Part shown: positions 9,144 through 61,643 of the stretch, piece after piece | Position numbering within the stretch: position 1 is the stretch's first letter | How the letters are laid out: the number at the start of each line of letters is the position of its first letter | DNA from: Pseudonocardia sp. HH130629-09 | GTDB taxonomy: Bacteria > Actinomycetota > Actinomycetes > Mycobacteriales > Pseudonocardiaceae | Length of the DNA stretch: 64,000 bases | NCBI RefSeq assembly: GCF_001294645.1 | Contig: NZ_CP011868.1 | Location: 2,666,001 to 2,730,000, forward strand | Direction of reading: 5' to 3' | The notes under the pieces: model-generated | Told to the model about the DNA's origin: nothing | What the model saw: only the letters and a program-made list of their open reading frames with translations | The model's database searches: none | Program-made: the position numbers and the translations under genes

Positions 9144-10934
9144 TCAGAGCCAGGCGTCGCGGACATCGAGCGTGGTCCGGTCCAGCGACGCCAGCAGGTC
9201 CAGCTGCGGTCCGGTGCGGGGCAGCTCGTGGCGCACGAAGTAGCGGGCGGCGGCGCGCTTGCCGTCGTACAGGTCGCCGGCGCGGCCCTCGGCAGCGAGC
9301 GCCTGCTCCAGCCAGATCCAGGCGAGCACGACGTGCCCGACCGCCTCCAGGTACACCGAGGAGTGGGCGACGGCGAGCGCCGCGTCGTCCTGGCCGTGCA
9401 CGACGCCGGTCACCTCGACGACCCGGTCGGCGGCCGCGGCGACGGCGTCGGCGTGCTCGGCGAGGTCCCCTCCGGCCGTGCGCCCGCGGGCCACGGTCGC
9501 CCCGATCGTGGCCCGCAACAGGGTCAGCCCGGCGCCGCCCTGCATCACGACCTTGCGGCCCAGCAGGTCCAGGCCCTGGATGCCGTGGGTGCCCTCGTGG
9601 ATCGGGTTGAGCCGGTTGTCGCGGTAGAGCTGCTCGACGTCGTGGTCGCGGGTGTAGCCGTAGCCGCCGTGGATCTGGATGGCGAGGTCGTTGGCCCGCA
9701 GGCACCACTGTGACGGCCAGCTCTTCGCGACCGGGGTGAGCACCTCCAGCAGCAGGTGCGCCCGGCGCCGCGCCTCCTCGCTCCCTGCGGTGCGCTCCTC
9801 GTCGAGCAGGCGTCCGCAGTAGAGGTTCAGCGCCAGCGCACCCTCCACGTAGGACTTGCTCGCGAGCAGCATCCGGCGCACGTCGGTGTGCTCGACGAGC
9901 GGGACCTGCGGGCTCGCCGGGTCCTTCGCCCCGGCCGGGCGGCCCTGGGTCCGGATGCGGGCGTGCTGCAGGGCCAGCAGGTAGCCGGCGTAGCCGAGTG
10001 CCGTGGCGCCCGCACCGACGCCGACCCGGGCCTCGTTCATCATGTGGAACATCTGGGCCAGACCGGTGTGCGGGTCGCCGACCAGGTAGCCGACGGCACC
10101 CGCCTCGCCGCCCGGGGTGGACCGGCCCTCGCCGAAGTTCAGCACGGTGTTGACGGTGCCGCGGTAGCCCATCTTGTGCTTCAGACCGGCGAGTGCGATG
10201 TCGTTGCGCTCCCCGTTCTCCAGCACCCTGGGCACGACGAACAGCGAGATGCCCCTCACACCCGCCGGGCCGCCGGGGATCTTCGCGAGCACGAGGTGGA
10301 CGATGTTCTCCCCCAGCTCGTGCTCGCCACCGGAGATCCACATCTTGGTCCCGGTGAGGCGGTGGGTGCCGTCGTCGCGGGGCTCGGCGCGGGTGGTCAC
10401 GTCGGCCAGCGACGACCCGGCCTGCGGCTCCGACAGGCACATCGTGCCGAAGTAGCGGCCCTCCACCATGGGACGCACCCAGGTCTGCACCTGCTCGGGG
10501 CTGCCGTGGGCGAGCAGCAGGTTCGCCGCGGCGACGGTGAGCATCGGGTAGGCGGCGGTGGCGACGTTGCCGGCGTGCAGCCAGACGAAGCACGCCTGGA
10601 CGACGACGGCGGGCAGCTGCATCCCGCCGACCCGGGCGTCGAGACCGGCGCCGACGATCCCGGTGCCGCCCAGCACCGTCAGCGCCGCCCGGACCTCGTC
10701 GGGGAGGGTGACCCGCTCCCCGTCGAACACGGGCTCGCGGGTGTCGGAGATCGTGCGGTGCGGCGCGAAGTGCTCGGCCGCGACCCGGGCGGCGAGGTCG
10801 ACGACGGCGTCGATGGTGTCGCGGTCGTGCTCGGCGTAGCGCTCGCGGTCGCACAGCTCGACCACCCGCAGCCACTCGTGGAGCAGGAAGTCGAGGTCGG
10901 CACAGGAGATCAGCTGCGAGCGCACGACGGCCAC
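9144..10934 (-). CDS. acyl-CoA dehydrogenase, about 600-residue DmdC-like type
   Basis: FAD-dependent dehydrogenase of the longer class (596 residues from the GTG at 10934; a GTG at 10925 is an alternative). The catalytic Glu is in NPIHEGTHGIQGLDLLGRK, as in 3-methylmercaptopropionyl-CoA dehydrogenase DmdC and its many uncharacterised relatives. CLSEPQAGSSLAD is the FAD-binding block. The extra C-terminal 150 residues are typical of this class. It lies 37 bases after the FAD oxidase gene on the same strand and could be co-transcribed with the Dap cluster, but it may equally be an independent catabolic gene. The acyl substrate is unknown. Confidence 0.88.
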   Translation of the reverse strand: MAVVRSQLISCADLDFLLHEWLRVVELCDRERYAEHDRDTIDAVVDLAARVAAEHFAPHRTISDTREPVFDGERVTLPDEVRAALTVLGGTGIVGAGLDARVGGMQLPAVVVQACFVWLHAGNVATAAYPMLTVAAANLLLAHGSPEQVQTWVRPMVEGRYFGTMCLSEPQAGSSLADVTTRAEPRDDGTHRLTGTKMWISGGEHELGENIVHLVLAKIPGGPAGVRGISLFVVPRVLENGERNDIALAGLKHKMGYRGTVNTVLNFGEGRSTPGGEAGAVGYLVGDPHTGLAQMFHMMNEARVGVGAGATALGYAGYLLALQHARIRTQGRPAGAKDPASPQVPLVEHTDVRRMLLASKSYVEGALALNLYCGRLLDEERTAGSEEARRRAHLLLEVLTPVAKSWPSQWCLRANDLAIQIHGGYGYTRDHDVEQLYRDNRLNPIHEGTHGIQGLDLLGRKVVMQGGAGLTLLRATIGATVARGRTAGGDLAEHADAVAAAADRVVEVTGVVHGQDDAALAVAHSSVYLEAVGHVVLAWIWLEQALAAEGRAGDLYDGKRAAARYFVRHELPRTGPQLDLLASLDRTTLDVRDAWL

Positions 10935-10971: not shown

Positions 10972-12072
10972 TCAGCCCCCGACGGCGACGGCCGGGGCGA
11001 ACGCGGGCGAGCGGGTGCGGCCGGTCCGGACCAGGTCGGCGACGAGCTCGCCGACCGCCGGTGCGTACTTGAACCCCTGCCCGGAGAACCCTCCGACGGT
11101 GACGGCCCGCGGAGGCCAGTGGGCGACCGCGACGACACCGCGGCGCTGCGGCGTGTAGCCCTCCACGTAGGACTCGAGCCGGGCCGGCAGCTCGGACATC
11201 CCGGCGAGCCGGGCCGCCACCGCGCCGGCCCAGGCCCGGGTGTAGCCGGCCTCGACCGACGGGTGGTGGTCGGCGGGTGAGGTCACGCGGGGCTGCGGCT
11301 GCTGGTGGTTGATCTTCACGGTGGCGCCGTCGACGGCCGGGAAGAACGAGTGCAGTGGCGCCCCGGTGCACACCCCGGGCGGGAACGCGGCGGACGCGAA
11401 CAGGGCGGGGTCGGCCACCGGGAACCAGCTCAGCACGACCCGGCGCTGCTCGATCCCGGGGACGCCCGGGACCAGCCCGGCGCCGTGGCCGGTGGCGAGC
11501 ACGACGGTGTCGGCGACGGTCTCGCCGTCGACGGTGTGCAGCACGACGCGGCTCCGCCGCATGCCGATCCCCAGCACGGTGACACCCTCGCGGACCGCTG
11601 CGCCCGCCCGGCGGGCCTCCGCGACGAGCCCGCGGGTCGCGGCGGCGGCGTCGAGCAGGCCGCCGCCGGGGTCGAGGACGGCCACCTCGTCCGGCCCCAG
11701 CAGGTGGGCGGGCCAGCGTGCGCGCGCCACGGCGGGAGCGAGGACCGTGGTCCGGCCCGGCAGCGCGACCGCGCGCACCCGCTGGTCGTCCGCGGGGCCG
11801 ACGGTGAGTGCGCCGCAGGCGGTGAACGGCCCGCCGGGCAGGCCGGTCCACAGCTCCCGGCTGCGGTCGAGCAGCCGGACGTGGTCGGGCCCGGTCCCGA
11901 CGGCGGTGCGGAAGATCCGCGTCTCGCCGCCGGACCCGCCGTCGGGGTGCCCGACCCGCCCGGACTCCAGCCCGACGCACGACACCCCGGCCCGGGCCAG
12001 TGCGAGCAGCGACGCGGCGCCGAGCACACCCAGCCCGACGACGGCGCACTCGACCGACCCCGCCCGCCTCAC
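10972..12072 (-). CDS. FAD-dependent amine oxidase (DAO superfamily, SolA/sarcosine-oxidase-like)
   Basis: A 366-residue flavoprotein. It has an N-terminal dinucleotide motif (VVGLGVLGAASLLALA) and a C-terminal GGFSGQGFKYAPAVGELVADL block typical of monomeric sarcosine and N-methyltryptophan oxidases, which oxidise secondary amines or amino acids and make H2O2. Its GTG start overlaps the stop of the Wzz-like gene by 4 bases (GTGA), so it is translationally coupled to the Dap cluster. It may oxidise a cluster intermediate or product. That is inference from position, and the substrate is unknown. Confidence 0.8.
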   Translation of the reverse strand: MRRAGSVECAVVGLGVLGAASLLALARAGVSCVGLESGRVGHPDGGSGGETRIFRTAVGTGPDHVRLLDRSRELWTGLPGGPFTACGALTVGPADDQRVRAVALPGRTTVLAPAVARARWPAHLLGPDEVAVLDPGGGLLDAAAATRGLVAEARRAGAAVREGVTVLGIGMRRSRVVLHTVDGETVADTVVLATGHGAGLVPGVPGIEQRRVVLSWFPVADPALFASAAFPPGVCTGAPLHSFFPAVDGATVKINHQQPQPRVTSPADHHPSVEAGYTRAWAGAVAARLAGMSELPARLESYVEGYTPQRRGVVAVAHWPPRAVTVGGFSGQGFKYAPAVGELVADLVRTGRTRSPAFAPAVAVGG

Positions 12073-14081
12073 GGGTGCTGCTGCGACCGGATCCGGGCGT
12101 CCGCGGGCAGCGGCACGCGGGCCAGGTCGTGGGGCAGGCGTCCGGACCAGACCAGGCAGAGCAGCGGCGGGGCGCCGACCGCCCGCAGAGCGGCGACGGC
12201 CGTCACGACGTCCTCGACGGTCGTCGCGGCGGTCTCGACCGCGAGCACGGTCGGCCCGCCGTCGCGCACGGTGCCCAGGTCCTCGTGGGCCAGCCGCGGG
12301 ACGCGCAGCGCCCGCACGACCGGCGTACCGGCGGCGGCGGTCGTCGCCCTGGCGCCCGGGGTGAGGTCGCGGTACTCGCGCCGGTCCCCCACCAGCGCGG
12401 CCGCCTTGACCAGCTCGGACGCGACGTCGCAGGCCGGTTCGGGGGTCAGCTGCACGACGGTGAGGCACCCGGTGCCGCGCAGCAGGTCCCGGTAGGCGCC
12501 CGCCAGGCGCGGGACCGCGTCCGGCGCGGTGCCCGGCGCGAACACCGGCACGTCGAGCCGGGCGCGGAGCCGGTCCTCGGGGTGGGCCTCGGGCAGCAGC
12601 CCGCGGCCGCGACGCACCGCGGGCACCCCGAGCCCGGCCAGCAGCAGCGCGGCGCCGGCGGCGATCCCCGCGGCGCCGCCGGCCCACCGCGCGGTGGGGA
12701 ACTCGGGCGCCGCGACCGGATCCGGCCCGTCGACGACGACGGTGACCTGCCCCGTGCGGTCGGCCAGGGTCCGTCCGAGCTGCTCGGCGACCGGATCGGT
12801 GCCTCCGGTGCCGCCGGCCTGGGCCTCCGCTGCGCGCCGGTCGATCTCGGCGCGCAGCGGCTGGGTGCCGCCGCTCGTGACGGCCGCGTCGAGGGCCCCG
12901 AGGCGTTCCCGCAGGGCGGTGACCGCGTCGGCCGCCAGGGCGGTGGCGGTGGCCTCGTCGGTGCCGGTGGCGCGCACGGCGACCACGCCCGGTCCGGGCG
13001 CGGTGAGCACCAGCCGCCCGGCGACGTCGGCGACGGTGCCGCCGGTCAGCTCAGCGACCCGGTCGGCGAAGGCCGCGCTGCCGGCCGCGGCCAGGGCGCG
13101 ACCGGTCGCCGGCCCGGGGTCGGCCGTGCCGACCGAGCCGACCTGCACCGACGTCGTCGCGATGGTCGGGGGCGGGAACAGCACGGCGAGGCCGGCAGCC
13201 CCCGCGGCGGCGAGCAGCACGACGCCCGCGACGGGCGCGCGGCGCCGGCGCAGGGACGCACCGATCTCCCGCAGGGGACCGTTGCGGTCCACCCCGGGCA
13301 GGACGGACCGCGGGGCCGGCGCGGGAGCCGCGGCCGGGGGCCACAGCGGCGCCCGCGCGGGCGCCGCGGGAGCCGCCGCCCGTACCCCGGCCGGGGCGGT
13401 CGGGGCAGGTCCGGTGGTCGACGGCAGCGGTGAGGGGACGACCGGCCCGACGGCCGTCGTGGGCGACGCCGTCCCGGCCGCTGCCGGCGCCGGGACCGCG
13501 CCGGCACCGTCGACCCGGGGCGGGAGCCATGTCGGGGTCACGGTCCGATGGGCACCGGCCCGCGGCTCGGTGCCGCCACGGGTGTCGGTACCGGTCGATT
13601 CGGTACCGGTCGATTCGGTACCGGTCGATTCGGTACCGGTCGATTCGGTACCGGTCGATTCGGTACCGGTCGATTCGGTACCGGTCGGCGGCTCCGCGCC
13701 GTCCGCGGCGCGGGCGGGGCCCGGCGCACCCGACGCCGCCGGTGTCACCGCCCCGGGGGGCGGGAGCAGACCGCGCCGCCGCGACCGGGGCCGCTCCGGC
13801 GCGCCGGGGCGGGCCGGCTCGGCGTCGGCGGTGCCGGTGGCGGCGGGGGACGCGGCTCCGCCCGGTGACCCGGTCCGGTCCTCGGACCGCTCCGGGTCCG
13901 GGGCTCCGGTGCGCGGCAGCGCCGCCGTGGTCGAGGCGTCGTCCGCGACGCCCGGGATCCCGCCCGTGCGCTCCTGCGGCTCCCCGCGGCGGTAGGGCGT
14001 CAGCCGCGGTGGGGTCCCGGCCTCCGGTGCCTCGCGCCGCGGCACGACCAGCGGTGCCCGCGGGGTCCTGGTGCGGGCCAT
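12069..14081 (-). CDS. Wzz/BY-kinase-like membrane protein with degenerate kinase domain and repeat-rich N-terminus
   Basis: A 670-residue protein in four parts. Residues 1-280 are disordered, rich in Pro, Ala, Gly and Arg, and include six copies of TGTES (about 133-165). TM1 is at about 284-303. An extracytoplasmic segment of about 160 residues resembles the polysaccharide chain-length-determinant fold. TM2 at about 466-488 is followed by a cytoplasmic domain that follows the bacterial tyrosine-kinase layout (YRDLLRGTG at 530, a VLAVETAATTVEDV stretch near 612) but has no GKT/S Walker A and no Tyr tail. Such proteins normally control the chain length of exported polymers. The ATG overlaps the sbnA stop by one base (TGATG). 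The family call is by layout and could be wrong; a diverged membrane scaffold is the alternative. Confidence 0.6.
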   Translation of the reverse strand: MARTRTPRAPLVVPRREAPEAGTPPRLTPYRRGEPQERTGGIPGVADDASTTAALPRTGAPDPERSEDRTGSPGGAASPAATGTADAEPARPGAPERPRSRRRGLLPPPGAVTPAASGAPGPARAADGAEPPTGTESTGTESTGTESTGTESTGTESTGTESTGTDTRGGTEPRAGAHRTVTPTWLPPRVDGAGAVPAPAAAGTASPTTAVGPVVPSPLPSTTGPAPTAPAGVRAAAPAAPARAPLWPPAAAPAPAPRSVLPGVDRNGPLREIGASLRRRRAPVAGVVLLAAAGAAGLAVLFPPPTIATTSVQVGSVGTADPGPATGRALAAAGSAAFADRVAELTGGTVADVAGRLVLTAPGPGVVAVRATGTDEATATALAADAVTALRERLGALDAAVTSGGTQPLRAEIDRRAAEAQAGGTGGTDPVAEQLGRTLADRTGQVTVVVDGPDPVAAPEFPTARWAGGAAGIAAGAALLLAGLGVPAVRRGRGLLPEAHPEDRLRARLDVPVFAPGTAPDAVPRLAGAYRDLLRGTGCLTVVQLTPEPACDVASELVKAAALVGDRREYRDLTPGARATTAAAGTPVVRALRVPRLAHEDLGTVRDGGPTVLAVETAATTVEDVVTAVAALRAVGAPPLLCLVWSGRLPHDLARVPLPADARIRSQQHP
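13591..13680 (-). repeat. 15-bp tandem repeat, six exact copies (coding VNTR)
   Basis: Unit ccggtcgattcggta, six perfect head-to-tail copies plus partial units on both sides. The unit length is a multiple of three, so copy changes alter the Thr-Gly-Thr-Glu-Ser repeat of the Wzz-like protein without shifting frame. Perfect identity of copies suggests recent expansion or homogenisation. Confidence 0.95.
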
Positions 14082-15121
14082 CAGCGGGACCCCGCGACCA
14101 GGGCGGGCCCGCCGGGCACGATCTCGGTCACGACCCCGGTGCCGCCGCCCTCCCGCGGGGACGGCAGCCCCGCCGCCGTCACCGGCCCGAAGTGCTCGGC
14201 CAGCCACGACGGCCGGTAGACCGTGTCGAGGTAGCGCTCCCCCAGGTCCGGCGACAGCGCGACGGCCGTGGTCGTCGCGTCGCCGTGCCGACGCAGCCAG
14301 GCCGCCGCACCGGCGACGACGGTGCCCGTCGACCCGCCGAACAGGAACCCGCGGCTGGCCAGCGCGTGGCACGCCTCGAGCGTGTCGGGCTCGGCGACGT
14401 GCACGACGTCGTCGATGTAGGACTTGTCGAGCAGCTCGGGCCGGACGCTGGTGCCCAGCCCCGGGATCATCCGGGGGGTGGGCCGGTCGCCGAAGGTGAC
14501 CGAGCCGGCCGCGTCGACCGCGACCACCCGGACCGGCCGCGGCCGGGACCGGAAGTACCGCGCGCAGCCCATCAGCGTGCCGGTGGTCCCCGCCCCGACG
14601 AAGACCACGTCGAGCTGCGGGAACGCCGCCTCGATCTCCGGCCCGGTGGTGACCAGGTGCGAGCCCTGGTTCTCGGGGTTGGCGTACTGGTTCAGCCAGA
14701 CGTAGCGGTCGTCGCCGGCGACCAGCGAGCGGACCAGCGCGATCCGGGTGGCGAGGAACCCGCCGGCGGCGTCCGGGGTGTCGACGACGCGGACGTCGGC
14801 GCCGAGCGCCTCCATCAGCCGGTACGTCGCCGGGTTGCAGCGCGGGTCGGTGATGCAGACGAACCGGTAGCCCCGGCTCGCCGCGATCATGGCGAGTGCG
14901 ACGCCGAGGTTGCCCGAGGAGGACTCGACGAGCACCGAACCGGGACGCAGCAGACCACGCCGCTCCGCGTCGGTGACCATGCCGAGCGCGGCCTTGAGCT
15001 TCACCGAGCCGGCGAAGTTGAAGCCCTCGCACTTGAGGTAGAGCGACAGTCCGAGGACCCGGGTCAGGTCGACGTACAGGTCGTCGGTGTTGAAGTCTTC
15101 GGGTGCGGAGATGACGGTCAT
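14081..15121 (-). CDS. sbnA: SbnA-type N-(2-amino-2-carboxyethyl)-L-glutamate synthase (Dap biosynthesis)
   Basis: PLP enzyme of the cysteine-synthase fold. SbnA of staphyloferrin B synthesis condenses O-phospho-L-serine with L-glutamate to the conjugate that SbnB then cleaves. The 346 residues show the PLP lysine in FAGSVKLKAA (K41), the substrate loop VESSSGNLGVALAM, and a GAGTTGTLMG phosphate cradle. It lies 31 bases after sbnB in the same operon, and that pairing is what distinguishes it from an ordinary cysteine synthase. It supplies L-2,3-diaminopropionate, presumably for the adenylation protein encoded upstream. Confidence 0.9.
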   Translation of the reverse strand: MTVISAPEDFNTDDLYVDLTRVLGLSLYLKCEGFNFAGSVKLKAALGMVTDAERRGLLRPGSVLVESSSGNLGVALAMIAASRGYRFVCITDPRCNPATYRLMEALGADVRVVDTPDAAGGFLATRIALVRSLVAGDDRYVWLNQYANPENQGSHLVTTGPEIEAAFPQLDVVFVGAGTTGTLMGCARYFRSRPRPVRVVAVDAAGSVTFGDRPTPRMIPGLGTSVRPELLDKSYIDDVVHVAEPDTLEACHALASRGFLFGGSTGTVVAGAAAWLRRHGDATTTAVALSPDLGERYLDTVYRPSWLAEHFGPVTAAGLPSPREGGGTGVVTEIVPGGPALVAGSR

Positions 15122-15152
15122 CGTCGACCCCTCGTGTACCAGTGGTGGCGGC

Positions 15153-16193
15153 TCAGCCGTGCCGGCTCAGCTCGTGGAAGAAGTCGTCGACGGTGTGCAG
15201 CTCGCCGGCGCGGGCGACCTCGGCGTGGACGAACCGGCCGACGGCGAGGTCGAGGACCCCGAGGCCGAACGGGGAGAACACGACCGTGCGGTCGGTGGGG
15301 ACGGCCAGCGTGCCGTCGAGCACCTGGTCCAGGGTCCCGTCGACGAAGTCGCGGTTCCCGGTGGCCTGCTCGGCCAGGTGCGGGGACGTGTCGGCCTTGA
15401 GGCAGTGCTCGACGTCGTCGAGGACGTTGAACGAGCTGAGCACGATCTCGGCCGAGAGGTCGCGCAGCGACACGTTCAGCACCAGCGGGTGGTGGTCGAA
15501 CCAGGCGGGGTCGTGGACGTGCGGCGTCCCCGCAACGGTCGCGAAGACCACCAGGTCGCTGCCGCGCACCAGCGACTCGACCGAGTCGTGGACCCGGACC
15601 TCGCCCGGTGCGGTGCGCTGCACGTGTCCGCGGAAGCCCTCGGCGGAGTCGGCGGACAGGTCGAACACACCGACCTCGTCGAACGTCCAGCCGGTGCCGA
15701 CCAGGAACTGGTGGATGTAGCGGGCGATCAGCCCGGTGCCGACGAACCCGACGCGGCGCGGCCGGTCCCGGTCGCGGGACAGCCGCTCGGCCGCCGACGC
15801 CGCCGACGCCGCGGTGCGGGTCGCGGAGATGATCGAGCTCTCCAGGCAGGCGTACGGGTAGCCGGTGACCGGGTCGTTGAGGATCAGCACCGCCGAGGCC
15901 CGCGGGACGCCGCGGGCGACGTTCTCCGGGAAGCTGGAGATCCACTTGATGCCGTCGACGCCGGTCCCGTCGCCGGATCCCAGCGAGGCTGGCAGCGCGA
16001 TGATCCGCGACGACGGCCGGTCCGGGAACCGGAGGAAGTACGACGGCGGGTTCACCGTCGCGCCGGCACCGTGCGCCCGGTAGGTGTCCTCGACGAGCTC
16101 GACGAGCTGTTTCTCCCGCCCGCCGAGCGCCCGCGCCACCTGGGCGCCCGGGATCACGGAGAAGGCGGGAACGGACGCGGGCGGGGGGGGCAT
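15153..16193 (-). CDS. sbnB: SbnB-type 2,3-diaminopropionate synthase (ornithine cyclodeaminase fold)
   Basis: NAD-dependent enzyme. SbnB oxidatively hydrolyses the SbnA product to L-2,3-diaminopropionate and 2-oxoglutarate. The 346-residue protein belongs to the ornithine cyclodeaminase/mu-crystallin fold with a Rossmann motif VGFVGTGLIARYI near residue 147 and the KWISSFPEN block near residue 82. The ATG at 16193 has an excellent ribosome site (GAGGGAG) 5 bases upstream, placed inside the end of the dioxygenase gene, so the two genes overlap by 40 bases. 2-Oxoglutarate made here is also the co-substrate of the neighbouring dioxygenase. Confidence 0.9.
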   Translation of the reverse strand: MPPPPASVPAFSVIPGAQVARALGGREKQLVELVEDTYRAHGAGATVNPPSYFLRFPDRPSSRIIALPASLGSGDGTGVDGIKWISSFPENVARGVPRASAVLILNDPVTGYPYACLESSIISATRTAASAASAAERLSRDRDRPRRVGFVGTGLIARYIHQFLVGTGWTFDEVGVFDLSADSAEGFRGHVQRTAPGEVRVHDSVESLVRGSDLVVFATVAGTPHVHDPAWFDHHPLVLNVSLRDLSAEIVLSSFNVLDDVEHCLKADTSPHLAEQATGNRDFVDGTLDQVLDGTLAVPTDRTVVFSPFGLGVLDLAVGRFVHAEVARAGELHTVDDFFHELSRHG

Positions 16194-17167
16194 CGGGCTC
16201 CCTCGAAGGCGGGGACGGCGACGCCGTCGGTCATGGCGACGACGACGTGGCGGTCGCCGGTGTAGGGGTCGCGGCCGTGGGCGAACCGCAGGTTGTCGAC
16301 GACGAGCAGGTCGCCGTCCTGCCAGGGCTCACGCACGGCGTGCCGGTCGTGCACGGCGTTGATCTCGTCGACGACCGACTCGGGCACCGGCGAGCCGTCG
16401 CCGAAGCGGGTGGTGAACGGCAGCCCGTCCGGCCCGTGCACCTCCAGCAGGAACTCCCGGACCTCGGGATCCATCGCGAACTCCGACAGGAAGGCGATCT
16501 GGTTGAACCAGACCCGGCGCCCGGTGACCGGGTGCATCAGGACGCCGTGGCGGCGCTGACGGGTGCGCAGACCGCCGTCGGGCGTCCAGTCGGCGTCGAT
16601 CCCGTTGTCCCGGCAGTAGTGCTCGACGGCGGCGCGGTCGGCGGTGCCGAACGCCTGCTCCCACGAGGCGCCGACGTCGTCGCCGTAGGAGCGGGTGAGG
16701 ATCCAACCGTCGCGCTCGACCCGATCGACCAGGGCGGGCGGCAGGTCCGCGGTGACCCGGGTGGTGTCGACCACCGGCGTCGCGCCGCCGGTCTCGGGTG
16801 CACGCAGGCAGGCGAACAGCAGCGTCGCCGGCGTGTCGAGGACGTAGGACAGCTCGTGGTGGGCGCACATCGGCTGGCGTACCGGCCACGGGGTGGCCGA
16901 GTGGACGCCGTCGGCCAGCAGCGTCCGGGCGGCGAAGGCCTCCCGCTCGACGTAGCCACCGGTCCCCAGCCGGGCGGCCACACCGGACACGTCGGCGACG
17001 GTGCGCAGGCCCAGCCCACGCACCAGGACGACGCCGTGGTCGTCGAGCAGGTCGCGCAGCGCGTCGCCGTGCTGCTCGGTCCAGCCCGTGGCGTCGCCGC
17101 CCGGGCCCGCGTCGAGGACGGGCGGCCGTCCGGGGTGCGGGCGCACCCCCAGCAGTGATCCGGTCAT
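16154..17167 (-). CDS. TauD/TfdA (SyrP/clavaminate-synthase-like) Fe(II)/2-oxoglutarate dioxygenase
   Basis: Non-heme iron oxygenase of 337 residues, probably hydroxylating an amino acid. The metal triad is visible: H103-x-E105 in CAHHELSY and H297 in RFAHGRDPYTGDRH, with R306 or R299 for 2-oxoglutarate. HxE rather than HxD is the form seen in clavaminate synthase, AsnO and VioC, which hydroxylate free or carrier-bound amino acids. The ATG follows AGGGGGAGAAC. The Pro/Arg-rich C-terminal tail is encoded in the overlap with sbnB. It lies between the adenylation gene and the Dap genes, so beta-hydroxylation of a carrier-bound residue is the best guess. Free Dap or the finished product are alternatives. 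Confidence 0.85.
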   Translation of the reverse strand: MTGSLLGVRPHPGRPPVLDAGPGGDATGWTEQHGDALRDLLDDHGVVLVRGLGLRTVADVSGVAARLGTGGYVEREAFAARTLLADGVHSATPWPVRQPMCAHHELSYVLDTPATLLFACLRAPETGGATPVVDTTRVTADLPPALVDRVERDGWILTRSYGDDVGASWEQAFGTADRAAVEHYCRDNGIDADWTPDGGLRTRQRRHGVLMHPVTGRRVWFNQIAFLSEFAMDPEVREFLLEVHGPDGLPFTTRFGDGSPVPESVVDEINAVHDRHAVREPWQDGDLLVVDNLRFAHGRDPYTGDRHVVVAMTDGVAVPAFEGARCPPRPRPFPPSP

Positions 17168-17187
17168 GTTCTCCCCCTGTGCGGTGG

Positions 17188-19740
17188 TCAGTGCTGCTCG
17201 GCCGGGAGCAGCCCGGCGAGGTCGGTCAGGGCGGGGTGGTCGATCACCTGCCGGACCGTGACGGCCCGGTCGAGGGCGATCACGAGCTTCACCGCGGACA
17301 GCGAGCTGCCCCCCAGGTCGGCGAAGTCGTCGTCGGGGCCCACCGAGCCGGCGGGCAGGTCGAGCACGCGGGTCACGGCGTCGACGACGCGGCGCTGGGC
17401 CGCGGTGGGCTCGCCGGCGGCCCGGGCGGCGGTCTCCGCCGGTGCCCCGGCGGCCCGGGCGGCGGTCTCGGTGGCGCGGGCGGCGAGGGTCTTGCGGTCG
17501 ATCTTGCCGTTGGCGGTGACCGGCAGCGGGTCGAGCCGGAACACCGTCGACGGGACCATGTAGGCGGGCAGGCTGCCGCTCAGCGCGGCCCGCACCTGCG
17601 CGGCGTCCGGGCCGTCACCGGCGTGGTAGGCCACCAGCTGCGGACCTCCTGCCGTCGTCGCGACGACGACGCAGGCGTCGCGGACGCCGGGGACCTCCAG
17701 CAGCGCGTTCTCGATCTCGCCGATCTCGATCCGGAAGCCCCGGATCTTGACCTGGTTGTCGCGGCGGCCGAGGAACTCGAGCTGCCCGTCGGGGCGCCAC
17801 CGGCCGTGGTCGCCGCTGCGGTAGAGCCGCTCGCCGGGTCGGTACGGGTCCCGCCCGAACGCGGCCGCGGTGCGGTCGGGGTCGTTGACGTAGCCGCGGC
17901 CGACGCACACCCCGGAGAACACGATCTCGCCCGGCGCGCCGAGCGGTACGGGCTGCAGGTCGGCGTCGACGACGTAGACCTTGACCCCGGGCACCGGCGC
18001 GCCGAGCGGGACCCGGCCGTCGGCGGGCGCGGAGCGCAGCACGGCGTGGTTGGTGTCGTCGGAGGTCTCGGTCAGCCCGTAGGCGTTGACCAGCGGGACG
18101 CCGGGCAGGACCCGGAACCAGCGCTGCACCAGCTCGGGCTTGAGCGCCTCCCCGGTCGCCGAGACCGCCCGCAGGTCCGGCAGCTCGGTGGGATGCTCCT
18201 CCAGGTAGGTCAGCACGACCTCGAGGTAGCTGGGCACGAGCTGGGCGACGGAGACCCGGGACCGCACCAGGGTCTCGACGAAGCGGCGGACGTCGAGGAC
18301 GACGTCCTGCTCGACGAGCAGCGTGCGTCCGCCGGCCAGTGGGCCCGCGACGAGCTGCCACAGCGAGATGTCGAAGCACTGCGGTGCGGTCTGGGCGACG
18401 ACGCAGCCGGGCTCCAGCTCCAGATCCTCGATCTTGGCGAGCAGGTGGTTGAGCATCCCGGCGTGCTCGCACATCGCACCCTTCGGCTCGCCGGTGGAGC
18501 CCGAGGTGAAGTACAGGTAGGCGAGCCCGTCGGCCGGGACGTCGGCGGTCGGCGCGGGGCCGGCCGCGGCGGCGACCGCGTCCGGGACGGTCAGCACCGT
18601 CCCCGCGACGCCGGCCTCGTCGAGGTGGGCGCGGGTGGCGTCGGTGGTCAGCGCGATCCGGCAGCCGGCGCGCGACAGCGTGCGGGCGATCCGACCGGCC
18701 GGGAAGTGCGGCTCGACCGGCAGGTAGGCACCGCCGGCGCGCAGCACGGCGAGCACCGCGACCATCCAGGCGAGGTCGCGGTCGCACACCACGGCGACGA
18801 CGTCCTCGCGCTGCAGACCCGCCTCGAGCAGGGTCGCCGCGGCGCGGGCGGCGCGGCCCTCCAGCTCGGCGCGGGTGAGGGTGACTCCCGCGTGCTCGGC
18901 GACGACCTCGTCGGGGGCTGCGACGGCGCGGTCGGCGAGCAGCTCGTGCGGCCGCCGGTCGGGCAGGTCCCGGGCCCGGCCGGCGAGGCCGCCGAGCTGG
19001 GCCTCGCGCTCGGCCCGACCGACCAGCGCCGACGGGCGCACGTGCGCCAGGGGGTCGGCGGCGGCGAGCTCCAGGGCCGCGGTGTGGTAGCCCGCGATCC
19101 GGGCAGCGGCGGTCACGTCGAGCAGGTCGAGGCGGTAGGCCAGGGTCAGCGTCGCCCCGGTCGCCGACACGTGCATCCCGGCGCCGGACGGCAGGGCGCC
19201 GGACCACACCGCGCGGGCCGCGGCGCCGTCGCCGCGGCCCCCGGTCCGGCCGAGTGCCCCGGGGGCGATCTCGATGCCGCGCAGGTCGGCGCCCGGGTCG
19301 AGCACGGTGCCGAACGACGGCACCGCCGTCCCGAGGCCGGCCGCGAGCGCCTCGAGGTCGGGGGCGGGGTGGGCCCGCAACCCGGCCAGGGCCTCGGCGG
19401 CGGCGGTGACCAACGCGGACCAGCTGCGGGCGGTGTCGAGGGACACCGGCAGCGGGGCCGCCCCGGAGTCGCCCCGGACCCCGGCGGTGACCTCGGCGTC
19501 CCCGGACAGGGCGGCGAGGACGGCGGCGTGTGCGGCGAGCAGCACCGCGCCGGGCTCGGCGCCGGTCACCTCGGCGACCGCGGTGACGGCCTCGCGTGGG
19601 AGGGGCTCGGTGTGCACGGCGGTACCGGGCCGGGGCGAACCGGTCCAGGCCGGCGCCGGGGTGGCACCGCCGGTGAGCAGCACCCGGGTCCAGTGCTCGC
19701 GGGCGGTCGTGGTGGTGAGGTCGGCGAGCGTGCCGGTCAT
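17188..19740 (-). CDS. NRPS adenylation-carrier protein with truncated condensation-like N-terminus; diamino-acid code
   Basis: An 850-residue enzyme that activates an amino acid as AMP ester and loads it on its own carrier. Residues 1-255 resemble only the second half of a condensation domain; no HHxxxDG is present. The A domain (about 262-750) has A3 YFTSGSTGEPKG, A5 NAYGLTETSDD, A7 YRSGD and A10 NGKIDRK. Specificity residues read from alignment to PheA are D457 I458 W461 Q500 S527 T529 A553 D561 D562 K746. The carrier domain is C-terminal, with the phosphopantetheine Ser at 813 (GGSSL). There is no thioesterase. The code matches the diaminobutyrate code DIWELTADDK at 8 of 10, fitting Dap from SbnA/SbnB. 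The ATG overlaps the upstream gene's stop (ATGA). Confidence 0.88.
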   Translation of the reverse strand: MTGTLADLTTTTAREHWTRVLLTGGATPAPAWTGSPRPGTAVHTEPLPREAVTAVAEVTGAEPGAVLLAAHAAVLAALSGDAEVTAGVRGDSGAAPLPVSLDTARSWSALVTAAAEALAGLRAHPAPDLEALAAGLGTAVPSFGTVLDPGADLRGIEIAPGALGRTGGRGDGAAARAVWSGALPSGAGMHVSATGATLTLAYRLDLLDVTAAARIAGYHTAALELAAADPLAHVRPSALVGRAEREAQLGGLAGRARDLPDRRPHELLADRAVAAPDEVVAEHAGVTLTRAELEGRAARAAATLLEAGLQREDVVAVVCDRDLAWMVAVLAVLRAGGAYLPVEPHFPAGRIARTLSRAGCRIALTTDATRAHLDEAGVAGTVLTVPDAVAAAAGPAPTADVPADGLAYLYFTSGSTGEPKGAMCEHAGMLNHLLAKIEDLELEPGCVVAQTAPQCFDISLWQLVAGPLAGGRTLLVEQDVVLDVRRFVETLVRSRVSVAQLVPSYLEVVLTYLEEHPTELPDLRAVSATGEALKPELVQRWFRVLPGVPLVNAYGLTETSDDTNHAVLRSAPADGRVPLGAPVPGVKVYVVDADLQPVPLGAPGEIVFSGVCVGRGYVNDPDRTAAAFGRDPYRPGERLYRSGDHGRWRPDGQLEFLGRRDNQVKIRGFRIEIGEIENALLEVPGVRDACVVVATTAGGPQLVAYHAGDGPDAAQVRAALSGSLPAYMVPSTVFRLDPLPVTANGKIDRKTLAARATETAARAAGAPAETAARAAGEPTAAQRRVVDAVTRVLDLPAGSVGPDDDFADLGGSSLSAVKLVIALDRAVTVRQVIDHPALTDLAGLLPAEQH

Positions 19741-22538
19741 CGTGCGGACTCTCCGTTCAGCAGCGGGGTCGGGGTCGGGGTGGGGGCGGGACGGGGGCGC
19801 GGCGCGGCGGCCGGGTTGCCCTCCCAGACGGCGCCGGCGGGGACGTCCTCGCCCTTCATGAGGAAGGCGTCGCAGCCGATGCGGGCCGCGTCGCCGACGA
19901 CGGCGCCGTAGTGGACGAAGGCCCCGACGTCGAGACAGGCGCCGGCGCCGACGGTGATGAAGTCGGACTTGAAGGTGCCGTCCTCCTGCGAGTGGCACTG
20001 CAGCACCGACCCGGCGTTGAGGACGGCGTCGTCGCCGATGCGCACGAGCGTGCGGTCGGTCATGCCACAGCCGTCGTCGAACACGCGGCGTCCGATCCGC
20101 ACGCCGAGGACGCGGGTGACGAGGTTCTTGAACGGGGTCCCGGCGAGCATCCGGTCCCAGCCCTGCACCACGAGCTTCCAGTAGCGCTCGTGCCACCAGA
20201 AGTACGGGTCGTAGACCGAGCAGAAGCGGGGCCGCAGCCGGCGGCGCCCGACGGTGGCGAGCCGTTCGACCGCGATCGTGTACGCCATCGTGAACAGCAG
20301 CGACAGCAGCAGCTGCACCCCGACCGCGATCGGGCCCAGCGGCGCCAGCAGCGCCGCGACGACCAGGGCGAGCAGGGTGACCCCGAACAGGGCACCCCAG
20401 CGGAACGCCACGGCGAGCGCGATCGTGCGGCGGTTGTAGCGGTTCTTGGCGCGCAGCCGGTCGTGCAGGTCGAGCCCGGTGTGCAGGTGGCCGAACGTCG
20501 AGTCCCGGGCGACGGTGCGGGGGATCTCGAACGGCGGCGAGCCGAGGAGCCCGACCCCGGTCCGCACCCGGCCGTCGGTGGGAACGAGCGTCTTGGTCGC
20601 GATCAGGCAGTCGTCACCGACCCGGGCGCCGGCCGTCCACACGATCCTGTTACCCAGGAACGAGTTCGACGCGATCCGTGTCCGATTCACGACGAATGCC
20701 GTGTCCGAATAGTCGACATTGACGATGGACAAACCGTCGGCGACCATCGTGCCGGTTCCGATCGAGCTCGCGTACGGCGTCTCCTGCTTCACCGCCGTCC
20801 CGAAGTTCGTCCCCGTCTGCGGGGTCCGCCGCAGATCGTGTCCGATGATCCGGAGGTAACCGACGACGTAGGAGCTGTCGCCGAGCAGATAGGTGAAGAA
20901 CCTGATGTTCGTGATCCGCAACACGGTGCGCTGCAACGTGTATCGCAGCCCGTAGAGGGGATACGGACGACCTTCGGTGAGCCCGAGCGACAGCACCCGT
21001 GCGACCACCGCTGCCCCGAACAGCCCGACGACCATGCCCGTGAGGAGCAGGCCGGTCGAGCTGACGAGGGCATCGAGCCAGAGCTGCGAGGAGAACACCC
21101 CGGCGGCCCCGCTGCCGATCACCGTCGCCAGCGTCGGCACGGACATCAGCACGGCGTCGGCCACACCGGTGCCGAGCGGCAGCCAGACCAGCAGCAGCCA
21201 GCCGAGCTGGCCGGTCGCGTAGCCGGCGCGGCGCGCCCGGCCGACCGTCGCCGAGACCCCGGACCCCGGATCACCGCCGCCCGGGCGGGCCGGCGTGCCC
21301 CACCAGGTCGCTCCGGCCGGGACGGTCTGCCCGGTGTGCAGCGAGGAGGCGTGCGCGAGCCGTCCGCCGTCGCCGATCTCGGAACCGATGTCGACGACCG
21401 ACGCCTCGCCGACGACGACGCGGGCGCCGATCGTGACCCGGCCGGTCCGGATGATGCCCGGCTCGGCGCGGTAGCAGGACAGGATCGCGTCCTTGCGCAG
21501 CACGGTGTTCGCACCGACGGTGAGCAGGTCGGGGCAGGCCGGGATCGTGCGCGCGAGCATGACCACGCCGGGCCCGATCCGGGCACCGAGCAGCCGCAGG
21601 TAGAGCGGGAGCAACGGGGAACCGGAGGCGACCAGCAGCAGCGGATTGGTCCGGACCAGGGTCCTGGCCAGCCAGAACCGGTAGTAGGCGGCGCTCCACA
21701 GCGGGATCTCGCGCTCGGTCCACCGGCCGACGAGCAGCCACTTCGCCGCGATCGGCAGCACCGCGAAGACGGCGAAGGCCACTGCGACCGCGGCCAGCGA
21801 CCGCAGGTAGAAGCTCAGCAGCCCCGAACCCAGCGCGATCCACTGGTAGACGGCCCCGAGCAGGGTGCCGTAGGCGAGGGTGAACACGACGAACGTCGCG
21901 AGCTGGGCCGCTCCGCACAGCACGTAGGCGCGGGTGGAGCCGGTCGGGACCGGCAGCGCGGGCGCGGCCCCGGTGACCTCGGGGCCGGCGCTCCCGGCGA
22001 GCGCGTCGGCCAGGCCCGCGGCGGTGGGGTGGGCGTAGACGTCGGTCATCGCGACGTCGGGCAGGTCGTCGCGGCGGCGCACCCGGGCGCAGAACCGGGT
22101 CATCGTCATGGAGTCGGCGCCCAGGTCGGCGAACACGTCGGCGTCGGCCCCGACGTCGGTCCCGACGTCGGTCCCGACCAGATCGGCCAGGATCGCCCGG
22201 TAGCCCTCGCGCACCTCGTCGACGGTGTGGCCCGGCCGCGCGCCCGTCGGGGCGAGCGCCCGGGCCAACCCGGCGACGGTGGGGTGGGCGTAGACGTCGG
22301 TCATCGCGACGTGCGGCAGGTCGACCCGCTGCCGGACCCGCGCGCAGAACCGGGCCAGGACCATGGAGTCGGCGCCGGCGTCGACGAAGAAGTGGTCGTC
22401 CGGCCGGACGGGCGCATCGAGCAGCTCCGTGAGGATCGCGGTGAACGTGACCGCGACAGTGCGTTCCGACTCGGACACCGTCCGCGATTCGTGGTCGCGC
22501 ACAATCCGGGTTGCCACCACACCGTCTTTCGACAACAT
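19737..22538 (-). CDS. Pls/PosA-like membrane protein with two tandem carrier domains and hexapeptide (LbH) domains
   Basis: A 933-residue protein from the ATG at 22538, which has GGGGGA about 5 bases upstream (ATG 22544 is an alternative). Order: carrier 1 (Ser58 in DAGADSM), carrier 2 (Ser143 in DLGADSM), membrane segments about 205-265, a left-handed beta-helix-like acyltransferase domain about 310-415, further membrane pairs about 445-530 and 720-770, and further hexapeptide-like domains to the end. This is the C-terminal plan of epsilon-poly-lysine synthetase (Pls/PosA), in which membrane-spanned tandem domains join residues without ordinary condensation domains. The A domain that Pls carries is here a separate protein encoded next door. 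First gene of the operon; its partners suggest Dap as building block. Product and mechanism are not established. Confidence 0.82.
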   Translation of the reverse strand: MLSKDGVVATRIVRDHESRTVSESERTVAVTFTAILTELLDAPVRPDDHFFVDAGADSMVLARFCARVRQRVDLPHVAMTDVYAHPTVAGLARALAPTGARPGHTVDEVREGYRAILADLVGTDVGTDVGADADVFADLGADSMTMTRFCARVRRRDDLPDVAMTDVYAHPTAAGLADALAGSAGPEVTGAAPALPVPTGSTRAYVLCGAAQLATFVVFTLAYGTLLGAVYQWIALGSGLLSFYLRSLAAVAVAFAVFAVLPIAAKWLLVGRWTEREIPLWSAAYYRFWLARTLVRTNPLLLVASGSPLLPLYLRLLGARIGPGVVMLARTIPACPDLLTVGANTVLRKDAILSCYRAEPGIIRTGRVTIGARVVVGEASVVDIGSEIGDGGRLAHASSLHTGQTVPAGATWWGTPARPGGGDPGSGVSATVGRARRAGYATGQLGWLLLVWLPLGTGVADAVLMSVPTLATVIGSGAAGVFSSQLWLDALVSSTGLLLTGMVVGLFGAAVVARVLSLGLTEGRPYPLYGLRYTLQRTVLRITNIRFFTYLLGDSSYVVGYLRIIGHDLRRTPQTGTNFGTAVKQETPYASSIGTGTMVADGLSIVNVDYSDTAFVVNRTRIASNSFLGNRIVWTAGARVGDDCLIATKTLVPTDGRVRTGVGLLGSPPFEIPRTVARDSTFGHLHTGLDLHDRLRAKNRYNRRTIALAVAFRWGALFGVTLLALVVAALLAPLGPIAVGVQLLLSLLFTMAYTIAVERLATVGRRRLRPRFCSVYDPYFWWHERYWKLVVQGWDRMLAGTPFKNLVTRVLGVRIGRRVFDDGCGMTDRTLVRIGDDAVLNAGSVLQCHSQEDGTFKSDFITVGAGACLDVGAFVHYGAVVGDAARIGCDAFLMKGEDVPAGAVWEGNPAAAPRPRPAPTPTPTPLLNGESAR
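22024..22311 (-). repeat. internal duplication encoding the two carrier domains
   Basis: A 35-base block at 22024-22058 recurs exactly at 22277-22311. The surrounding 80 codons are also similar (both copies contain VAMTDVYAHPT and RFCARVR), so the tandem carriers arose by a recent in-frame duplication or are kept alike by gene conversion. Confidence 0.85.
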
Positions 22539-22984
22539 CGTCATCCCCCGGCAGCACCAACGTGTACGGGCAGAGTCGTCGGGCATTTCCGACCCGTTAC
22601 GTACTCATTTTCTGTGGTCGTAGCGAGCACCGCGATCCGACTGTTCGTCGGATTATCGGGCCACGATTCCGGCCGCGACGTCGAGGGCGTCGCGGTCGCG
22701 GGGGCGGCGTGGCGCAGACCCCGATGCTCTGTTTTCGTCTCCCACCACCGGAAGGTTCGACACGAGTCGAGATGTGATTCATATCACCATCCGTCACCCG
22801 TCGGGGCGGGCGCGTCGCCGGGCCCGCGGACGCACCCGGCCGGTTCCGGACGAACACCCGTGGCCGGACACGCGCGGTGATTCACTCGTCCGGCGACACC
22901 GGCCCCAGCGCGTGCACACCGCCGTCCGGGAGGCCGGCCCGGAACATGGACGGTTCCGCCGGACCACCACGCACAGGAGGACGA
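22539..22984. other. 446-base divergent intergenic region between the Dap cluster and phoD
   Basis: This must hold the promoter of the minus-strand Pls-like operon and that of plus-strand phoD. The stretches at about 22597-22625 and 22767-22790 are richer in A+T than their surroundings. No iron box, palindromic operator, convincing -35/-10 pair or small gene was recognised. Confidence 0.5.
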
Positions 22985-24428
22985 GTGACCGCACTCCCAC
23001 GCCGCAGCGTGCTGCTCGGCACCCTCGGGGCCGCGGCCGCCGGTCTGGTGCCGGCCACACCCGGTGGCGAGCCCGCCGCCGTGCCCCGCTGGTTCGCCGG
23101 CGCGCTGCGACAGGCGACGACGCCGGACCCGTTCACCCTCGGCGTGGCCTCGGGCGACCCGTCGCCCGACGGCATGGTGCTGTGGACCCGCCTGGCCCCC
23201 GAGCCCGACGCCGAGGACGGCCGCGGCGGCATGCCCGACCGGGCGGTCGAGGTCGGGTGGGAGGTCGCCGAGGACGAGGGCTTCACCCGCGTCGTGGCCC
23301 GCGGCACCGAGACCGCCACCCGCGACCTCGCGCACAGCGTGCACGCCGAGCCCGCCGGACTCGCCCCCGGACGCGAGTACTTCTACCGCTTCCGCACCGG
23401 CGGACACCTCTCCCCCGCCGCCCGCACACGGACCGCCCCCGCGGCCGGGACCGCCGCGGCCTCGCTGACCATCGCGACGGCGTCCTGCGCGAGGTTCGGC
23501 GCGGGCCACTTCACCGCCTACCGCGGGCTGGCCGCCGACGCTCCCGACCTGGTCCTGCACCTGGGCGACTACTTCTACGAGTCCGACCGCGGTGAGGTGC
23601 GCGACCCGGGCCCGCCGGAGCCCACGACCCTCGCCGGCTACCGGCGCACGCACGCCCACCAGCGCTCCGACGACGACCTGCGCGCCGCCCACGCCGTCGC
23701 ACCCTGGGTCGTCGTGTGGGACGACCACGAGGTCGTCAACGACTGGGAGGGCGCCACCCCCGATCGGCGCCGGGCCGCCGCGCAGGCGTACTACGAGCAC
23801 ATGCCGCTGCGCCGGGCCTCGGTGCCCGACGGCCCGGACATCCAGCTCTACCGGCGGCTGTCCTGGGGCTCGCTCGCCACCTTCCACGTCCTGGACACCC
23901 GCCAGTACCGGATGCGCGGCTCGATGCTCGGCGCCGACCAGGAACGCTGGCTGCTGCGCGGCCTGCGGGACTCCGCGGCCGGCTGGGACGTGCTGGCCCA
24001 GCAGGTGTTCTTCGCCCCGCGCCGGGGCGGCAAGTCCGGCACCTGGGGGGGAGTTCACCGGCTCCCGGGAACGGGTGGTCCGCGGCTGGACCGAGGCGGG
24101 CGTGCGCAACGCCGTCGTCCTCACCGGGGACGAGCACGTGCACCACGCCAATGAGATCCCCGGCGACGACGACAGGGTCGCCGGCACCGAGCTGGTCACC
24201 ACCTCGGTGACCTCCGGCGGCGACGGCGACGGCGACGCGAGGTCCGGTGGCAGCGGCAGCTCGGTGTGGTCGCTCGACCGGCGCGGCTATGTGCTGGCGA
24301 CCTTCACCCCCGCGCAGATGCGTGCGGACTTCCGCACCGTGTCCCGGGTCAGCGAGCCGAGCGCCACGGTGCGCACGGCGGCGTCGTTCGTGGTGCAGGA
24401 CCGGGAGCCGGGTCTGAACAAGGTCTGA
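22985..24428 (+). pseudogene. phoD: PhoD-like alkaline phosphatase, frameshifted at a G run
   Basis: Secreted Ca/Fe phosphodiesterase or phosphomonoesterase that scavenges phosphate. The GTG start follows CAGGAGGACGA. The N-terminus is a Tat signal (PRRSVLLG then a hydrophobic stretch). Metal-site motifs are LHLGDYFYES, VWDDHEVVNDW and LTGDEHVHH. The first two lie in one frame and the last in the next frame. The switch occurs at a run of seven G at 24045-24051; six G would restore GTWGEFTGSRERV and one continuous protein of about 480 residues. Either a one-base insertion has broken the gene or the run was miscalled in sequencing. Nothing else looks degraded, so I favour an otherwise functional gene. 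Confidence 0.85.
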
Positions 24429-61638: not shown

Positions 61639-61643
61639 CGCCG

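Follow-up and report, generated by a model that had tools for sequence, protein, structure and literature searches.

What is made by a gene block that joins a Pls/PosA-type membrane polymerase without an adenylation (A) domain to a separate A-T protein (T, carrier domain), an oxygenase and genes for L-2,3-diaminopropionate (L-Dap)? This question was raised by seven minus-strand genes at positions 10,972–22,538 of a 64,000-nucleotide stretch (the window) of Pseudonocardia sp. HH130629-09 (assembly GCF_001294645.1, contig NZ_CP011868.1, positions 2,666,001–2,730,000), whose genome (G000) measures 6.30 Mb. On sequence grounds, the best reading is an oxidised oligo- or poly-Dap assembled by a Pls protein loaded in trans, and we give this roughly even chances. 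It is preferred because the Pls, SbnB and SbnA proteins exceeded the cut-offs of TIGR02353, TIGR03944 and TIGR03945, and because both the block (53/59 loci) and the A-domain pocket are conserved. Further reasons are that tauD, the oxygenase gene, adjoins pls even where the A-T gene is absent, that the oxygenase residues are intact, and that a dapdiamide oxygenase offers a precedent (PMC12451424). The Wzz-like protein adds a co-polymerase-like fold and an exclusive co-occurrence with window-type Pls in the genus. No description of the product of the five-gene core (pls, A-T, tauD, sbnB and sbnA) was found in the literature searched.

The pls gene (19,737–22,538) encodes a 933-amino-acid (aa) protein with two T domains and a Pls/PosA membrane polymerase domain. 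The protein matched TIGR02353 at 613.5 bits (cut-off 423.1) over profile positions 2–695 of 695 and contained two PP-binding stretches and two carrier motifs, and no A domain was found in it by family scan. Hydropathy alone placed its hydrophobic segments in three groups (residues 204–232 and 239–274, 447–468 and 486–523, and 705–763). The window genome holds one Pls, and the protein is 72–92% identical in seven other Pseudonocardia genomes. The free-standing A-T protein (17,188–19,740; 850 aa) has a C-lobe-like N-terminus, an A domain (AMP-binding, 246 bits) and one carrier, which matched PP-binding. The product of tauD (16,154–17,167; 337 aa) is a TauD/clavaminate-synthase-like, DdaC-like Fe(II)/2-oxoglutarate oxygenase (PF02668, 152.9 bits). 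SbnB (15,153–16,193, with an alternative GTG start at 16,157) reached 411.6 bits for TIGR03944 (cut-off 326.9) and SbnA (14,081–15,121) 384.9 bits for TIGR03945 (cut-off 349.95); membership of these equivalog families argues strongly that the two proteins make L-Dap. The block ends with a wzz-like gene (12,069–14,081; 670 aa) for a Wzc/Wzz-like co-polymerase-fold protein and with fad (10,972–12,072), an optional member encoding a FAD-dependent amine oxidase of the DAO / N-methyltryptophan oxidase type.

These genes are tightly packed. The pls and A-T genes overlap by 4 bp (19,740/19,737), A-T and tauD are separated by a 20-bp gap and sbnB and sbnA by a 31-bp gap, and the sbnA/wzz and wzz/fad overlaps are 1 and 4 bp, respectively. 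The tauD/sbnB overlap is 40 bp with the ATG start of sbnB (16,193) and 4 bp with the GTG start (16,157). An original prediction, made from the letters of the window, had stated that all junctions were 31 bases or less, which is true with the GTG start and not with the ATG start. It had placed the seven genes correctly, and the families or predicted folds agreed with its descriptions of tandem carriers on the Pls protein, a separate A-T protein and oxygenase, SbnA and SbnB as L-Dap genes (both above curated cut-offs) and a chain-length-regulator-like protein (Wzc/KpsE/WzzE-like predicted fold).

We compared the block with two sets of relatives. The 80 named loci, drawn from at least 489 relatives in a TauD-alignment scan, were anchored on TauD and owe their TauD content to that choice. 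The 61 Pseudonocardia stretches comprised 14 chosen for TauD (L161–L174) and others mostly chosen for Pls, and their tallies are not rates. All presence/absence tallies depend on bit-score and identity thresholds and on stretch length, and neighbour genes were called with a codon model trained on the window, by which genes may be missed. The five-gene core is not special to the window genome. Of the 59 oxygenase-anchored loci whose flanks are full, 53 contained all five genes, 43 of them in the window order; the remaining six (L078, L121, L122, L139, L145 and L155) missed one or more genes. Pls was present in 72/80 TauD-anchored loci and in 58/59 with full flanks. The hosts of the named loci were Streptomyces, Kutzneria, Kibdelosporangium, Amycolatopsis, Geodermatophilus, Actinomadura and others. 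As to a further core gene, no neighbour family reached 9/80 named loci. TauD relatives were detected in 42/62 Pseudonocardia genomes (E <= 1e-70) and in 95/199 genomes of the genus of G102, the source of a Streptomyces atratus locus (1e-90); the latter figure counts matches alone, not neighbourhoods.

Within the genus, the relatives carried the block at the same site in the fetched stretches, with a PhoD-like flanking gene in six of the seven (exception L036). All seven genes were found in L031 and L035, as in the window, and all but the FAD oxidase in L034 and L036. L033 retained pls, tauD, sbnA and wzz, and L037 the same genes with fad, both without A-T and SbnB. In G046 (L032, L062) the A-T gene was interrupted and the remaining genes were present. 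Because orthologous loci occur in seven other genomes of the genus and the five-gene block in other actinobacteria, the arrangement is more than chance. The original prediction had treated the seven-gene order as the unit to search for, and had regarded the dioxygenase, the Wzz-like protein and the oxidase as additions of this cluster. Although all seven genes recurred in L031 and L035, only the five-gene core is widespread, and tauD belongs to it; the Wzz-like protein and the oxidase do look local.

The oxygenase residues H103, E105, H297 and R306 (the HxE...H triad and the distal Arg) were invariant in 17/17 aligned sequences. The catalytic pattern was matched in 30/31 oxygenases, the sole miss being cut by a contig end. 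The window oxygenase was 33% identical (E 2e-56) to the DdaC homologue of the Pantoea vagans pPag2 dapdiamide locus. DdaC acts on a DdaD-tethered Dap derivative, with His104, Glu106, His298 and Arg307 as the residues named, and window residues 103/105/297/306 share their spacing (PMC12451424). In 11 Pseudonocardia stretches, tauD adjoined pls without A-T (L033, L037, L053, L161–L166, L173 and the contig-edge L167). The tauD gene of L163 and L164 overlaps the end of an A-bearing pls by 4 bp, and SbnA, SbnB and A-T were not found in these two stretches at the thresholds used. A-T without tauD was seen in L055, and also in L032, where the stretch ends first. This gene partnership suggests that the oxygenase works on a Pls-bound monomer or chain.

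L161–L166 and L158 represent a second family of Pls-TauD pairs. L161–L166 carry an A-bearing Pls with the code D[LR]EALSTV and an adjacent TauD, and SbnA and SbnB were not found there at the thresholds used. Plasmid pBCI1-2 of an ant-associated strain (L158) has Pls, TauD and a separate AMP-binding gene. On a Kitasatospora plasmid (L159), a 51% TauD relative lies in a nonribosomal peptide synthetase (NRPS) cluster with an asparagine synthase, a racemase, a kinase and a PLP enzyme.

Residues ~1–240 of the A-T protein resemble the C-lobe of a condensation domain. PF00668 matched 8/12 orthologous N-termini (best 8.9e-10), with no match in the N-terminus of the window A-T itself, and a check of residues 1–400 in 102 A-T sequences, not all complete, found no HHxxxDG. 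The pocket code of the window protein was DIWSSTADDK, where motifs and GrsA numbering, rather than a structure, served to place the Stachelhaus positions. The pattern DIWS[SAC]T[AT]DDK was found in 97/97 readable A-T sequences from 92 distinct loci. Among 28 Pseudonocardia sequences, 27 read DIWSSTADDK and one DIWSCTTDDK. The 74 named A-T proteins gave DIWSSTADDK (56), DIWSSTTDDK (10), DIWSATADDK (2), DIWSCTTDDK (1) and five unreadable codes; five of the 69 readable ones lie on contigs already among the Pseudonocardia 28, which leaves the 92 distinct loci. In the family scan, the window A-T had no thioesterase match, and three long A-T relatives ended in a thioesterase domain. A Cys-type acyltransferase in place of this thioesterase was rejected: the pattern was read in 53/102 sequences, and of 21 long-tailed ones, 8 had GHS[SA]GA and 13 gave no match.

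We further examined the A domains borne by Pls proteins (A1). Their codes were of DFE type in 10/16, DFQ in one, and misaligned and unread in five. In known Pls-family enzymes, the code has a conserved D at position 1 and a conserved E at position 3, and enzymes for Dap or diaminobutyrate (Dab) have F at position 2 (PMC10522769). A1 thus looks like a Dap/Dab activator, and the A-T protein has a different pocket. The five genes and a Pls-type A1 occurred together in 14/61 Pseudonocardia stretches; in L048, A1 sits on a second Pls next door. In A1-bearing clusters the A-T protein was 51–55% identical to the window A-T, and the Pls-borne A domain 28–32%. An origin of A-T as a detached Pls A domain was rejected, because A-T orthologues adjoin A-bearing Pls proteins and the codes differ. 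The label "split Pls" given in the original prediction is therefore misleading: A-T is a distinct module, found in relatives alongside Pls proteins that have an A domain of their own. When a Pls-borne A domain was used as query in the window genome, the best matches had 38–39% identity and lay in 774- and 5,454-aa frames away from the block. With one Pls and no close A1 match, A-T is the sole adenylation protein seen with the window Pls.

Some minor points concern the same two proteins. The idea that the window Pls lost an A domain was dropped, as A-bearing members are scattered in the Pls tree and the direction is not readable. Eleven of 72 named Pls frames are at least 1,100 aa and may hold unrecognised domains. 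A single TGA in many Pls matches was considered as a conserved in-frame stop and rejected, since at G037:C2 the match overruns the stop of the gene by one codon; this check covers that one annotated case. The A-T gene of G046:C44 (L032/L062) is interrupted by ~12 kb with large unrelated open reading frames (ORFs), and the matches on the two flanks have a few residues in common, possibly a target-site duplication.

A-T and SbnB go together in the genus, as would be expected if A-T uses the SbnB product. G013 and G037 have neither at the locus, but a second cluster in each (L058, L059) holds a single A-T and a single SbnB, the latter over the cut-off. G043 and G053 also have the second cluster, yet keep A-T and SbnB at the locus. 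Single copies were found in G000, G026 and G041. G046 had two further SbnB matches, one over the cut-off, and a second A-T was not found there at E 1e-120. Loss of A-T and SbnB was thus seen only with a second copy, in 2/4 such genomes, which are small numbers. A different Dap pathway is present on a plasmid of Streptomyces sp. NBC_01592 (L177), where SbnA and SbnB belong to a cluster that also holds a tryptophan halogenase and genes for anthranilate synthase.

In the Wzz-like protein, an N-terminus of low complexity and rich in repeats is accompanied by an extracytoplasmic domain flanked by two membrane helices and by a BY-kinase-like domain. Family scans assigned it no family; Pfam Wzz (PF02706) was listed for 1/8 orthologues, below its cut-off (13.5 vs 25.5 bits). 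Its predicted fold was Wzc/KpsE/WzzE-like, with co-polymerase and BY-kinase folds (model mean pLDDT 75, pTM 0.42). These predicted extracytoplasmic and kinase-like folds are shared with the Wzc/KpsE/WzzE co-polymerases. It differs from the Wzc type in that no Walker A motif was matched in the protein, its last 60 residues contain no Tyr and hence no C-terminal tyrosine cluster, and its operon partners are of NRPS type rather than polysaccharide genes. The protein occurred in 8/62 Pseudonocardia genomes, exactly those with window-type Pls. The FAD oxidase matched PF01266 (112.1 bits) and NF008425 (172 bits, under the cut-off of 257); it was also present at L031, L035, L037 and L062, and was not found at L033, L034 and L036, three of the seven relatives' loci. 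Among the named loci, 3/80 had the Wzz-like protein and 2/80 the FAD oxidase, all in Pseudonocardia. Both look like local additions. Repeated GTEST units were noted in the Wzz-like N-terminus (13,548–13,868), a region whose length varies between relatives.

In the reading that we prefer, SbnA and SbnB would supply L-Dap, and the C-lobe-A-T protein would activate a single conserved amino acid, in all likelihood L-Dap, with which it would load the carriers of the T-T-Pls protein, itself devoid of an A domain. The DdaC-like oxygenase, acting together with Pls as the gene partnership suggests, would oxidise the carrier-bound monomer or the growing chain. An N-acyl hemiaminal or dehydro-Dap is likelier than hydroxy-Dap, because on chemical grounds free Dap hydroxylated at C-beta would be an unstable hemiaminal. 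From knowledge of its family, the Pls domain would make isopeptide bonds at the membrane. In the two weakest steps, which concern this Pseudonocardia lineage, the Wzc/KpsE-like protein, whose kinase-type domain has no Walker A, may determine the length of the chain or aid its export, and amine ends may be trimmed or capped by the FAD oxidase. A broader and more tentative proposal, which we think doubtful, is a widespread polyamide class in which a trans-loaded Pls and a dedicated oxygenase would produce oxidised poly(diamino acids), with chains of the Pseudonocardia lineage governed by a recruited polysaccharide chain-length protein. We know of no nonribosomal polymer system that uses polysaccharide-type chain-length control. 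Cationic homopolymers such as poly-lysine serve as preservatives with antimicrobial activity, and few kinds are known. If the reading is true, the five-gene block of many actinobacteria encodes a modified class of cationic polymers. A trans-loaded A-T protein and a separate Pls would then allow activation, oxidation and polymerisation to be assayed apart, which is hard with a fused Pls, and with the Wzc-like protein one could test whether the length of a nonribosomal polymer is controlled.

That the A-T protein activates Dap is what we infer, and this is the main weakness of the oxidised poly-Dap reading. The substrate of A-T might instead be a second amino acid, of the size of Ser, Gln or another polar residue. 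Dap would then enter either as a free acceptor or by way of another A domain, and the product would be an X-Dap amide or mixed polymer. The A-T code is indeed unlike the DFE code of the Pls-borne A domains in the same clusters, but the two aspartates at code positions 8–9 would suit a second amine. Moreover, a Pls-type A1 was found in only 5/80 named blocks, yet SbnA was kept in 69/80 and SbnB in 73/80. Dap is favoured for A-T for this reason, and also because the best A1 matches of the window genome reach only 38–39% and are located elsewhere. We therefore regard a copolymer or hetero-amide as possible but somewhat unlikely. Several observations weigh against an oxidised poly-Dap as such. The A-T code is without the D..E signature of known Pls enzymes, and all 10 clusters with a DFE-type A1 also hold A-T; a second A domain for the same monomer would be superfluous, so that the substrate of A-T may be a different one. 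A-T with a thioesterase, present in 43/80 named loci, suits the release of a small product equally well. Pls without TauD was common, in 14/61 stretches (nine with pls alone, three with sbnA and two with A1), and TauD relatives occurred without Pls in L172 (40% identical) and L159. The model of the Wzz-like protein is middling (pLDDT 75, pTM 0.42). Finally, the fused A-T-Pls of S. albulus makes poly-Dap, with no oxygenase partner mentioned in the available part of PMC4668381.

A small Dap-amide antibiotic of dapdiamide type, in which Pls would form one or a few amide bonds, would account for sbnA, sbnB, tauD and AT(-TE) as a dda-like core. The dapdiamide system DdaA–DdaE of Pantoea (L175; PMC12451424) shares SbnA, SbnB, an Fe/2-oxoglutarate oxygenase and an A-T protein with the window, and its oxygenase acts on a carrier-bound substrate, as proposed for the window oxygenase. 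The Pantoea vagans pPag2 locus reads sbnA-sbnB-TauD-NRPS-hydrolase, with an ATP-grasp gene and ddaG. The shared neighbours stand in the same sequence and are transcribed in the opposite direction, SbnA being first in Pantoea and last in the window. SbnA is 42%, SbnB 44% and TauD/DdaC 33% identical between the two, but A-T and DdaD only 30%, and their codes differ (DIWSSTADDK vs DSESIGVINK). No Pls is annotated in the 14.8-kb dda stretch of Pantoea, whereas Pls was present in 72/80 TauD-anchored loci. Neither a DdaF-type ATP-grasp nor a DdaG fumarate-Dap ligase was found in the seven genes and ten other window genes scanned, including flanking genes. A dapdiamide-type product thus seems improbable. 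An ordinary poly-Dap, whose backbone the oxygenase and extra genes would leave unaltered, would make the block a trans version of the S. albulus PD-1 synthetase. A Pls domain with Dap genes fits this view, and poly-Dap is known from Streptomyces; the S. albulus system shares the Pls-type C-terminal membrane domain and L-Dap synthesis by SbnA/SbnB homologues (PMC4668381). However, A, T and Pls are fused there in one 4,338-bp gene with the Dap genes elsewhere, and oxygenase, Wzz-like and oxidase partners are not described in the available part of that paper. The presence of Pls in 58/59 full-flank TauD-anchored loci, the intact oxygenase active-site residues, and an A pocket that is not Dap-type by the rules of PMC10522769 make an unaltered poly-Dap very improbable.

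Among known systems, the block belongs with Pls/PosA by its polymerase domain, to judge from sequence, lacks two features of the fused enzymes, and in its other genes resembles the dapdiamide core. Pls (epsilon-poly-lysine) and PosA (delta-poly-ornithine) have in common with the window Pls a TIGR02353-type terminal domain and membrane-helix pairs; they have a fused A domain with D/E at code positions 1/3, whereas in the window the A domain acts in trans and reads DIW at positions 1–3 (PMC10522769). Streptothricin ORF18/ORF19 likewise provide a separate adenylation protein for diamino-acid oligomerisation, but there the stand-alone A domain itself mediates chain growth, and a Pls domain is not mentioned in the available part of the paper (PMC9606270). 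In S. albulus, the L-Dap enzyme NjxB is EXU92121, and an NRPS in Table 1 of PMC4668381, EXU92123, has glutamine as its NRPSpredictor2 call. The closeness of the two accessions alone suggests, as an unconfirmed guess, that S. albulus also has the block and that EXU92123 is its A-T orthologue; if so, the glutamine call would speak for the copolymer or hetero-amide reading.

Outside the seven genes, an acyl-CoA dehydrogenase gene (9,144–10,934, minus strand; PF12806/PF00441) lies 37 bp downstream of fad. It also adjoins the block in L031 and L062 and not in the five other relatives; it is possibly co-transcribed with the block and probably outside the pathway. On the other side, a PhoD-like phosphatase (22,877–24,428) looks frameshifted near its C-terminus, with a 425-aa ORF and the remainder in another frame, and its counterpart in L031 is a single 472-aa ORF. 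An acyl-CoA dehydrogenase-like gene (24,443–25,611) is likewise in two ORFs, and in L031 it is a single 388-aa ORF. These splits suggest local frameshifts, real or from sequencing. An L-lysine/L-ornithine N-monooxygenase was found at the left edge of the window (1–957), while the right edge (60,631–63,841) encodes two FecCD permeases along with a periplasmic binding protein. Both groups, together with large AMP-binding frames beyond the window, are probably siderophore genes.

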